From: Skeletonema tropicum
Taxonomy: Eukaryota > Bacillariophyta > Thalassiosirophyceae > Thalassiosirales > Thalassiosiraceae
Length of the DNA stretch: 64,000 bases
Direction: 5' to 3'
NCBI GenBank assembly: GCA_037178625.1
Contig: CM074128.1
Location: 1,302,001-1,366,000 of the forward strand
In this document: piece by piece, positions 25,998 through 30,190 of the stretch
How the letters are laid out: each line of letters begins with the position of its first letter
Position numbering within the stretch: position 1 is the stretch's first letter
Program-made: the position numbers and the translations under genes
Notes under the pieces: model-generated
Database searches by the model: none
Told to the model about the DNA's origin: nothing
What the model saw: only the letters and a program-made list of their open reading frames with translations

Positions 25998-27329
25998 TCA
26001 TATCTCAGCACCAACGAACATTAGCCCGTCTGGAGGAGCTGCACGAGATCTTTCTCTTCGATCCTTGCTCAATAGAATCTGTTTTATTGAATCGTCACTA
26101 CCTCCTCTGTATGCTTCCCGCAGAGCGGTGCCAACAAGAAGACGTACCATCCTCCGCAAGAACCTGTTCCCAACCAGCTCAAAGCATAATGCTTGCCTCT
26201 TGTGATCACCGCCACCTGTGTACTCTACTATGCTGACTTTTGAGTGATACAATGTGCACAGCGTCGTTTCAGTCTTGACTTTACCATGAGATAGAGCAAA
26301 GTAATCCAATTCCTTTCCTTCCAACTTGCGGAGCATGCGATCCAATCTAGGCACGAGATTACTTGTTATTCTTGGCGATTCCTTGTCATCAGAATCATCC
26401 TCCAAGTCTATAAGATATACATACGACCTACTTGTTGCGCCAAAGCTTGGATGAAATTCTGGACCTACTCGTTCGACATCTGTGATGCACAAGCCTAGAT
26501 TTTTGGCAGCTGCCTCGTTGTTCACCAATTCTTGAATATAAGTCTCTACATCAGGGATATCGTTCCACGTTCGTACGCGACACACTTGTCCTATGGCGCT
26601 AACGCCACGATCAGTTCGACCTGCTACTTTAATCTCAATAGGCTTTGTATTATTCGGAGACTTTCCAATCACAGGGCCCAATATATCAGCCAAACTTCCT
26701 TGAACTGATGGCAGAGGTTGATTGGTATTATCTACGTTGTTGATGTTGTTGTTGCTACTGCTATTGCTGTTTGGATTTCGGTATAACTCATGTCTTTGAT
26801 CTTCCCATCCACAAAAGCCAACCCCTCGATATGCTACAGATATCTTCAAATTTGTGCGCTTGCGATTCTTTTTCGAAGTTCTTGTAATCTTCGTCGGCGA
26901 AACCAAGTCGATTTCATCATTCTTGTTGTTGCTTAAGATACCAAATAGAGGTTCAAATTGTTCATCTCCAGAGTTTTGTTCAGTGTTGCCACCAGAATCA
27001 TGTTCGCAGTATGGAACTCGGCGCAACAGTGGGCTAGAACTAGAAACGTTTGCATTGTTTGACATATAACCTTCAACTACTGATGACGCTACGCTAAAGA
27101 TGGTTGGTGCATCGCTGGATCTCTCTATGAGCACCTGGTCAAGCCATTCATCGCATTCGTCTCGTTTCATTTGCCATTTGATGCTACCATCACCTCCATC
27201 ACTCTCTTGAGCTTGAGATGATGATAGGGAGGTGCTCATACGTTTTGACTTGTACAGAACAAATCCACAAGACACCTGCACCGTCAGCACAAGAACTGCA
27301 AACAATAACGCTATCTTTTCAATTAGCAT
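25998..27329 (-). CDS. TruA-type tRNA pseudouridine synthase, probably plastid-targeted
   Basis: 443 residues. The TruA core begins about residue 162 (KISVAYRGVGFCGWEDQ). The catalytic motif VAGRTDRGVSAIGQV contains Asp240. Further matches are EFHPSFGATSRSYVYL, CFELVGNRFLRRMVRLLVG and the end PPDGLMFVGAEI. TruA modifies U38-40 in the tRNA anticodon arm. Residues 1-30 are a signal peptide followed by CGFVLYKSKR, i.e. a Phe at the cleavage site and basic residues, the diatom plastid pattern. Low-complexity Asn/Ser inserts (185-207) and a disordered region 35-150 are odd but common in this genome. The gene diverges from the release-factor-like gene at 27635. Confidence 0.88.
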   Translation of the reverse strand: MLIEKIALLFAVLVLTVQVSCGFVLYKSKRMSTSLSSSQAQESDGGDGSIKWQMKRDECDEWLDQVLIERSSDAPTIFSVASSVVEGYMSNNANVSSSSPLLRRVPYCEHDSGGNTEQNSGDEQFEPLFGILSNNKNDEIDLVSPTKITRTSKKNRKRTNLKISVAYRGVGFCGWEDQRHELYRNPNSNSSSNNNINNVDNTNQPLPSVQGSLADILGPVIGKSPNNTKPIEIKVAGRTDRGVSAIGQVCRVRTWNDIPDVETYIQELVNNEAAAKNLGLCITDVERVGPEFHPSFGATSRSYVYLIDLEDDSDDKESPRITSNLVPRLDRMLRKLEGKELDYFALSHGKVKTETTLCTLYHSKVSIVEYTGGGDHKRQALCFELVGNRFLRRMVRLLVGTALREAYRGGSDDSIKQILLSKDRRERSRAAPPDGLMFVGAEI

Positions 27330-27634: not shown

Positions 27635-29053
27635 ATGGGAAGGTCTGTTGTGCTCTTTGGCATGATGCTTGCGTTCACCAGAGCCTTCTCAACTCTCAAG
27701 CCATGCCCGAGCAACTTCTTCCAGCGCCGCTTGGTTCACTGCGCAACAAAGGATGAACTGAAAATGGAGAATATTTATATGGAATGGTCGCTTGACGATG
27801 ATAGATTGTTATATAACAATCGACACCTTAGTTCTGTCCGCTTAGCATCAATGCTTGGCAGGGGTATGCATGGCGTTGAGTCTAGGATGAAGAAGATCAC
27901 AAACGTGGACAGTACAGCGTATCGTCGCTTGTTTGGTGGAGAAGATGCTCAAAATATCGATGCTGATGAGAATACAAGTAACAAGCTCACACCAGTAAAG
28001 GAAGTACTTCGACGCATTCAATGGGATCCAACGCTTCCAGCCTCGTCATTCACAGTAATCCACTACGATAGAGTGGAAGATACGCTATGTGAAACTCCAT
28101 TTGAAGCTGAAAATGATTCAATATCAGGCAAAGAACGGATGTTTGTGTTTGCGCTCCCCGAACATCGTATAGAAGCAGTGAAATACCTCGATCGCATTGT
28201 CTGGAACAAAGAGCTCAGGTTAGATGCAGTATTTGGCTCCATGAATGGCAAAGGAGAAACGATAGATCAAGTTGTTGAACATTACGACGAGTGGAAGAGA
28301 GACAAGGAAGAGAAAGAAGAAAGAAACAGACTCCGTCAAACTGAAATACTAAAAGAAATGCGCACTATATTAGATGAAACGAGAGTAACAACATTGAAGG
28401 AGATATCATCCAATTTGATACGCAGCGAGTGGGACAGTGAAGAAGTAAAGGACTACGTGAAGAGGGTACTCGCGTTATATTTCGACGCAGAAAAGGAAAA
28501 AGAAGATACCGAAAATGATGTTGCCAGTACACTAGAGGAAGAGAAAGAAGATGAGATTGATGTAATATACTTTCTAAATTTATTTTCAGACCTCGTTGCT
28601 CTGCTACCAGACGAGAGACTGAGAGGAGAAGTGTTGTTGGAGGTTGAATCAGTGATAAATAGAAACCAGAAGACTGGAGCCAACTCATCTGCCAAAACAT
28701 TACAACCAAGTGCATTGCCAGAACTGAACGAAGACGAGATTGAAGAGAAGTTTGTCAAAGGATCAGGTAATGGTGGTCAAAAGGTCAACAAAACTAGTAA
28801 CAGAGTCATACTCGTCCACACTCCGACTGGTCTGAGGGTTGAATGCCAAGATACAAGATCACTTCAGCAGAATCGGAAAATTGCCCGTAAAAGGCTCAGA
28901 CTTAAACTCGACGCATTCATCAATGGAGATGCCAGTCGAGCAGGACAAAAGGCGACTAAAGCAGTTACAAAGAAAGCAAAGAATAAAGCGCGCAGCAAGC
29001 GTCGTCGGCGGCAAAAGAATCAGAATCAGTCAGACGAAGAAAGTAGTAACTAG
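27635..29053 (+). CDS. MJ1316 (RNA cyclic group end recognition) domain fused to GGQ release-factor-like domain
   Basis: 472 residues, apparently plastid-targeted (MGRSVVLFGMMLAFTRAFST, Phe at the cleavage point). Residues 45-101 form a small helical module (LASMLGRGMHGVESRMKKI, AYRRLFGG). Residues 118-201 match the MJ1316/DUF504 domain: VKEVLRRIQWDPTLPASSF, the ALPEHRIEAVKYLDRIVWNK block and LRLDAVFGS. This domain is predicted to bind RNA ends with cyclic phosphate. After a charged helical linker (213-300), residues 365-430 form a class I release-factor catalytic domain with GSGNGGQKVNKTSNRV (GGQ 380-382) and CQDTRSLQQNRKIARKRL. It most resembles the MTRFR/C12orf65 rescue factors, which hydrolyse peptidyl-tRNA on stalled ribosomes and lack codon recognition. 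A Lys/Arg-rich tail could bind rRNA. The combined activity is inferred. Confidence 0.85.
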   Translation: MGRSVVLFGMMLAFTRAFSTLKPCPSNFFQRRLVHCATKDELKMENIYMEWSLDDDRLLYNNRHLSSVRLASMLGRGMHGVESRMKKITNVDSTAYRRLFGGEDAQNIDADENTSNKLTPVKEVLRRIQWDPTLPASSFTVIHYDRVEDTLCETPFEAENDSISGKERMFVFALPEHRIEAVKYLDRIVWNKELRLDAVFGSMNGKGETIDQVVEHYDEWKRDKEEKEERNRLRQTEILKEMRTILDETRVTTLKEISSNLIRSEWDSEEVKDYVKRVLALYFDAEKEKEDTENDVASTLEEEKEDEIDVIYFLNLFSDLVALLPDERLRGEVLLEVESVINRNQKTGANSSAKTLQPSALPELNEDEIEEKFVKGSGNGGQKVNKTSNRVILVHTPTGLRVECQDTRSLQQNRKIARKRLRLKLDAFINGDASRAGQKATKAVTKKAKNKARSKRRRRQKNQNQSDEESSN

Positions 29054-29076: not shown

Positions 29077-29775
29077 TTAACTTATGATGTCTTTCATGAG
29101 TTTTTGTACACTATGACCTATACATCTTTCGACTGCCTCCCTCTCTTCTATACACATCAACTGATCTAGACCTTGTTCTGCCAATGCCTTCACTACACGA
29201 GGTTCAGTGCTCTTCCAGCATGAGAGCAGTTTATTTGTTCTCTGGGGACAAACGGCACGCGCAAGACACAGATTATAATTTGTTGCGTGAATCTTTGTCA
29301 AGAGTAAATTCTCAGCAGGCTTTAGAGGTGTAAACTCAGGATGGTCTGGCGGTTTCTCGGGTAACTTTATCTCACTTCGCTTTTCTTTGGCAATAGCAGC
29401 TCGTTTATATGCAAACTCTTTTTTATTCTGGATAGCAGCACTTTTATAGTTCGCACATAGACTGGCAATCTTCCTTATTTCATCTATGGTTGTTTGCTTG
29501 TCTGACGGATGTGTTAATGAGCTATCATCTGATTCAATTCCATGATCATGGAGCAGAGATAGAAGTGGAGAAGTGTCGGCCATGGCTGATTCAGTAATAT
29601 AGGAGGGAAAGAGACATTGATCATAATACCATTGCTGTCGTTCACGTTTCCTGTCTTCGGCACTCGGCAGCTTTTCGCTGTTTTGTTGCAAAAAGTTGTC
29701 GATAAAGGTTTCATTTTTGCTTTCTGGTGGTGGAGGTGGAGGTGGTGGTGGCGGCGGCGGACGAAGATTGCTCAT
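29077..29775 (-). CDS. Uncharacterised protein with Pro-run N-terminus and C-terminal Cys pairs
   Basis: I choose the Met at 29775 (MSNLRPPPP), giving 232 residues; the upstream in-frame ATG (29883) adds only Leu/Cys/Ser-rich sequence. A run of about 12 Pro is followed by ESKNETFIDNFLQQN and a charged helical middle (KKEFAYKRAAIAKEKR). The C-terminal 75 residues carry spaced Cys (CLARAVCPQ, LSCWKS, LMCIEE, ERCIGH) in helical context, loosely like CHCH-type proteins of the mitochondrial intermembrane space. The spacing does not match the strict CX9C pattern, so no family is assigned. It overlaps nothing and ends 23 bp from the stop of the GGQ gene. Confidence 0.6.
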   Translation of the reverse strand: MSNLRPPPPPPPPPPPPESKNETFIDNFLQQNSEKLPSAEDRKRERQQWYYDQCLFPSYITESAMADTSPLLSLLHDHGIESDDSSLTHPSDKQTTIDEIRKIASLCANYKSAAIQNKKEFAYKRAAIAKEKRSEIKLPEKPPDHPEFTPLKPAENLLLTKIHATNYNLCLARAVCPQRTNKLLSCWKSTEPRVVKALAEQGLDQLMCIEEREAVERCIGHSVQKLMKDIIS

Positions 29776-30190
29776 GGTACGAGAAGAGGAGAGGAGGAGG
29801 AGGCAGCAGCAGCCAGGACAATACCAACACCAAACTTCCTCAAGGGGCCGTGAGGAGAGGAGGAGGATTTGCCTGCCTGCCATTGAGCTTGATGCTTCAC
29901 GTAGGAAATAGTAGAGGCTATGGCGGGAGACGCGATTGTGGCGCGGCCGGAAGGCGGGAACTTCTTCCTACCCGCCCACTCTCCTTCCCCATGCCTCATG
30001 CATTATACAATACAATAGGCAATACAAGTGCCTACCTCTAGTAGATGCTGAAAGTCATTATATATGCAAACAATTACTTGACCTACTATTCTGGCATTAA
30101 CAATCAAGAGATGAACCAAATCCTCCTCATGGAATTGACTTGTATACACATACATGTGAGATGCTGCATCTTTTCATGTTTGAATGATTA

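Follow-up and report, generated by a model that had tools for sequence, protein, structure and literature searches.

Examining a 64,000-nucleotide stretch of the Skeletonema tropicum genome (NCBI GenBank assembly GCA_037178625.1, contig CM074128.1, positions 1,302,001 to 1,366,000 of the forward strand; hereafter the window), we evaluated a gene at window positions 27635..29053 (+) that joins an MJ1316 (DUF504) domain to a GGQ peptidyl-tRNA hydrolase domain. The gene is a single frame of 472 amino acids (aa) plus stop, without internal stop, and is laid out as leader, helix-turn-helix (HTH)-like domain, MJ1316 domain, PAH/HHD-like helical domain, GGQ domain and basic tail. An original prediction, made from the letters of the DNA, had described an uninterrupted frame with these two named domains and proposed Pfam searches for them; the frame and its quoted motifs are as described, PF04457 and PF00472 both score above their curated cut-offs, and the two-domain architecture is real. 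Two further conserved blocks, at aa 45-108 (HTH-like) and aa 233-348 (helical), had been overlooked. Searching the genome (78 Mb, 125 contigs) with the PF04457 profile returned one place, such that the fusion gene is single by this measure.

Comparing profiles, structure chains and trees, we assigned the GGQ domain (28709..28933, aa 359-433, +) to the MTRFR/C12orf65 type. Pfam RF-1 (PF00472) matches at aa 363-466 (E 6.6e-22; 78.1 bits against a cut-off of 35), the catalytic GGQ motif (28772..28780, aa 380-382, +) is invariant in the 64 rows of the family alignment, and a basic C-terminal helix (28937..29050, aa 435-472, +), apparent from sequence and predicted structure, aligns to human mtRF-R up to residue 163 of that protein. 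Set against structure chains, the family profile reached MTRFR (7a5h_C) at E 4.3e-36 versus 5.2e-11 for the best PrfH chain, which leaves the analogy with PrfH drawn in the original prediction a loose one. The helix insert (alpha-i), presented as a family-defining feature in a portion of PMC6514570, is missing between the last strands, where the alignment (made after removal of P0179) shows a gap opposite extra residues in this genome's ArfB-type protein. By Pfam domain content the fusion holds neither a codon-recognition nor a GTPase-interacting domain while it has the basic C-terminal helix, in line with the proposed GGQ factor lacking codon recognition. Membership in two other families was rejected, with 56.5 bits against a cut-off of 166.65 for the PrfH/RFH equivalog TIGR03072 and 40.6 bits against 100 for the ArfB/ICT1 equivalog NF006718. 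Five places in the genome carry RF-1, and the fusion gene is the only MTRFR-like one. In a midpoint-rooted tree of the release-factor (RF) domain, built from 37 hand-picked rows and 76 columns after P0197 and P0205 were dropped, 6 of 34 inner branches were starred and the fusions did not form one group (two changes; 0% of bootstrap trees with one), the long-branched P0193 being placed in their midst. A search for MTRES1_C found no match, although none of 14 controls matched either. Taken together, homology strongly supports an MTRFR-type hydrolase, for which peptide release activity is likely.

The MJ1316 domain (27989..28210, aa 119-192, +) matches PF04457 across profile positions 2-75 of 75 (E 1.8e-13; 51.4 bits against a cut-off of 26.3), and all 64 members of the family alignment match this model. 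A weak MutH match (PF02976) overlaps the end of this domain and the part that follows (aa 154-228, 28094-28318), reaching E 6e-4 for the window protein. The match recurs at E <= 1 in 24 of the 64 family members, the strongest at 4e-4, with the scores seen below or near the 23-bit cut-off; we take it as spurious. The domain also occurs with other partners. In the eukaryotic protein P0277 it is combined with a 2H-type domain (PF10469/PF13563), and the residues common to that protein and the fusion are R127, I128, W130, D131, D145, R146 and the PEHRI motif. In a second eukaryotic protein, P0276, the same HTH-like and MJ1316 pair precedes a different C-terminal part that has no Pfam match and looks HAD-phosphatase-like, a pairing that suggests a reusable RNA-end module. 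No AKAP7-type 2H domain was found in this genome, and the literature searched for MJ1316, DUF504, UPF0248, PF04457 and LENG9 yielded no ligand-binding experiment.

Diatom plastid signals consist of a signal-peptide-like stretch followed by an A-F motif (A before the site, F after it). The leader of the fusion protein (27635..27763, aa 1-43, +) shows this plastid-type arrangement, with a hydrophobic stretch and then a scored site between MGRSVVLFGMMLA and FTRAFSTLKP. We scored leaders with a crude test whose thresholds we set ourselves, requiring a hydrophobic stretch, then A, S, G, C or T directly before F, and allowing no more than one acidic residue among the 22 that follow. Among family members with leaders of at least 30 aa (14 of 64 were shorter and excluded), 29 of 50 pass, the window protein included, compared with 5.8 expected from shuffled leaders, a count that takes the rows as independent although they are related. 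The plastid-type RF1, ArfB-type and SmpB leaders of this genome pass and the mitochondrial-type RF1 and RF2 leaders fail, the start residues of RF1 and RF2 having been chosen by hand. The ArfB/ICT1-type factor lies at L006 1480-2241 (-). Given its plastid-type leader, no mitochondrial rescue factor is evident among the five RF-1 places. These leader statistics agree with the plastid address first read from the leader and favour a plastid location, and targeting may be dual.

Between leader and MJ1316 domain lies the HTH-like domain (27767..27958, aa 45-108, +), recognized by its conservation (EW..DD..L...LAS.LGRG..GV..R..K...AY.RLF) and by predicted structure, which places helices at 53-61, 67-74 and 78-89 with block-mean predicted local distance difference test (pLDDT) values of 89-95 for aa 51-100; within the 64-member family, no Pfam family matched it beyond single members. 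The helical domain (28331..28678, aa 233-348, +) weakly resembles the PAH domain of ZNF598 and the harmonin-homology domains of RTEL1, and its PAH/harmonin-homology-like label is suggestive only. Against the ZNF598 PAH model PF23202 the window slice (19.4 bits), P0102 (22.9) and the ZNF598-like L018 (19.6) scored below the cut-off of 25, and only P0102 and P0238 matched among eight whole proteins scanned. Searching the genome with this model returned L017 and L018 below cut-off and not the fusion gene, while two bacterial controls also matched below cut-off. The profile of the helical domain in turn ranked L018, which we read from its frames as probably ZNF598-like, at the top of a set of 512 sequences that included 201 shuffled or reversed versions of L018, but at E 0.027. 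A Foldseek search with the N-terminal model gave no match at E <= 0.001, and another structure comparison returned rows mostly in the helical part, hardly probing the HTH-like and MJ1316 parts. No literature was found on ZNF598 with a PAH domain, and PAH terms were not mentioned in the RTEL1 papers searched.

To follow the fusion beyond this genome, we searched with the whole protein (scoring only the 7994 candidates that shared most words), which returned 355 homologues at E <= 1e-3, the best 120 of which were listed. Among these 120, counted by eye, 105 hold both domains, 14 only PF04457 and one only PF00472, and the letters GGQ occur in 107. Transcriptome names are attached to some of the entries with both domains (P0028, 'type:complete'; P0029, P0068, P0118), which argues against two separate genes. 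Of the PF04457-only entries whose ends were inspected, 11 of 13 stop or diverge a few residues from ...EEKFV(K/R)GSG and P0070 and P0104 do so before it; the fourteenth PF04457-only entry, P0052, continues to GGQ and diverges past NKT; introns in some species may account for these entries. The nearest named full-length relatives are S. marinoi (86%) and S. menzelii (85%), and the named entries among the matches listed are all diatoms (Skeletonema, Thalassiosira, Cyclotella, Conticribra, Mediolabrus, Attheya), with further diatoms (Odontella, Thalassiosira minuscula and the pennate Thalassionema frauenfeldii) added by taxid. A restriction to diatoms is provisional, since named entries are a minority and the listing covers the best 120 of 355. 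A query consisting of just the RF domain, limited in reach to short proteins, gave 89 matches among 96 candidates, comprising diatom pieces, free-standing MTRFR-like proteins from fungi (e.g., Coemansia, Gigaspora) and an amoeba, and a few bacterial proteins. The MJ1316 and helical part gave 88 matches (listed lengths 136-419 aa), with all organism names given being diatoms; P0273, P0276 and P0277 stand apart among them. P0273, with seven member sequences, holds the HTH-like, MJ1316 and helical regions without an RF domain and may represent a sensor that stands alone or a gene call truncated by an intron.

Around the fusion gene, a 443-aa frame lies upstream on the opposite strand (25998-27329, -), about 300 bases from the gene's start, and presumably resembles a TruA-type tRNA pseudouridine synthase by its GRTDRG motif; downstream, a convergent 268-aa frame (29077-29883, -) leaves about 25 bases from stop to stop. 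RtcB has one place in the genome, on a contig other than that of the fusion gene. Its frame (L008 1498-4218, -) encodes 906 aa with a long charged N-terminal extension and, by eye, no plastid leader. A transfer-messenger RNA search of the assembly, in which inclusion of the plastid genome was not established, gave 10 matches of 73-75 bases below the gathering score that appear tRNA-like to the eye.

The architecture has been published before on the basis of sequence analysis: section 2.5 and Fig 4C of Burroughs & Aravind 2019 (PMC6514570) present an MJ1316-C12orf65 fusion with essentially the same hypothesis, the proposal that MJ1316 recognizes cyclic ends being traced there to a 2016 RNA-repair paper. 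The original prediction stands for its domains, the missing codon-recognition domain and the plastid-type leader, and falls on the point that the pairing is undescribed. As far as our searches show, the present analysis adds tests of MTRFR membership in this genome, statistics on the leaders, two additional domains and the residues that the fusion has in common with the 2H-type MJ1316 protein. The literature searched contained no experiment on the function of the fusion, and nothing linking C12orf65 with diatoms, DUF504 with a release factor, or LENG9 with cyclic phosphate.

We lean, by a little, towards an MTRFR (C12orf65) family protein of diatoms that moved to the plastid and whose N-terminal RNA-recognition module brings the GGQ factor to ribosomes holding cleaved RNA. 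Under this working, the HTH-like and MJ1316 domains would bring the protein to jammed organelle ribosomes or jammed split large subunits, the obstacle being mRNA, tRNA or rRNA with a 2',3'-cyclic phosphate end; the PAH/HHD-like domain might act as a protein-docking hinge, the GGQ domain would enter the A site and hydrolyse peptidyl-tRNA, and the basic tail would hold rRNA. Sensing of cut RNA by the MJ1316 domain is plausible, and we infer the recognition of RNA ends, a docking role for the helical domain and the choice of substrate. A bolder extension, which we entertain only tentatively, is that diatoms rescue plastid ribosomes by a pathway built on a single protein, which would unite an RNA-damage sensor (the HTH-like and MJ1316 domains), a ZNF598-type docking domain and a GGQ releaser, cleaved organelle RNA triggering release, with the sensor parts recombined with other effectors (P0277, P0276).

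Weighed against this plastid, RNA-end-directed factor, a plain diatom MTRFR would perform general release on split organellar large subunits, its MJ1316 and HTH-like domains binding rRNA or tRNA without sensing damaged ends. The MTRFR type of the GGQ domain and tail, the location of the sole RtcB place on another contig, and the chance that the only MTRFR-like gene carries a general duty all suit this idea; docking alone, however, would not obviously need the MJ1316 motif residues that are kept, including those common to the 2H-type fusion, and we consider it possible yet doubtful. Of similar, limited likelihood is a mitochondrial (or both-organelle) factor that links release to mitochondrial RNA repair. 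According to passages of PMC8786322, human MTRFR is mitochondrial and, together with MTRES1, targets split large subunits that carry peptidyl-tRNA. No second MTRFR-like gene was found in this genome and, with its ArfB-type leader also plastid-type, no mitochondrial rescue factor is evident, but the leader statistics favour the plastid route.

Less probable again is a counter-conflict factor responding to ribotoxins or viral nucleases that cleave the RNA of organelles. Such a role is proposed for RFH/PrfH-RtcB in part of PMC6514570, and PrfH-RtcB2 is described in part of PMC9223846 as protecting E. coli from colicin E3, whereas the diatom gene is spread across many named diatoms rather than sporadic, is single in this genome by PF04457 and lies on a different contig from RtcB. 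That two adjacent genes were misread as one, or that the frame arose by chance, we regard as negligible; the two-domain homologues, some transcriptome-named, speak against it and no supporting point was found.

The clearance of plastid ribosomes stuck on cut RNA seems, in our judgement, little studied, and one protein possibly holding sensor and releaser would allow the MJ1316 ligand and plastid rescue to be addressed together. If a diatom MTRFR indeed carries a plastid address, it would also inform how a mitochondrial rescue factor can be redeployed.

One of the closest known systems is the published MJ1316-C12orf65 fusion, with the same two domains in one protein and the same proposed link between release and damage to organellar RNA; the text of section 2.5 mentions for it neither an organism nor a leader, an HTH-like or a PAH/HHD-like domain. 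Human MTRFR/C12orf65/mtRF-R (PDB 7a5h) shares the GGQ domain without helix insert and the basic C-terminal helix, but is short (166 aa) and mitochondrial, and its match is confined to GGQ domain and tail. Eukaryotic MJ1316-2H phosphoesterase-type proteins (P0277) have a homologous MJ1316 domain with the shared R-I-W-D, D-R and PEHRI residues, with a 2H-type effector where the diatom fusion has its GGQ domain. Bacterial PrfH (RFH) with RtcB is likewise a GGQ factor, one that acts where ribosomal RNA has been cut, as the fusion may do, yet it is more distant in sequence, retains a codon-recognition-type domain and sits in an operon with RtcB, as given in parts of PMC6514570 and PMC9223846.
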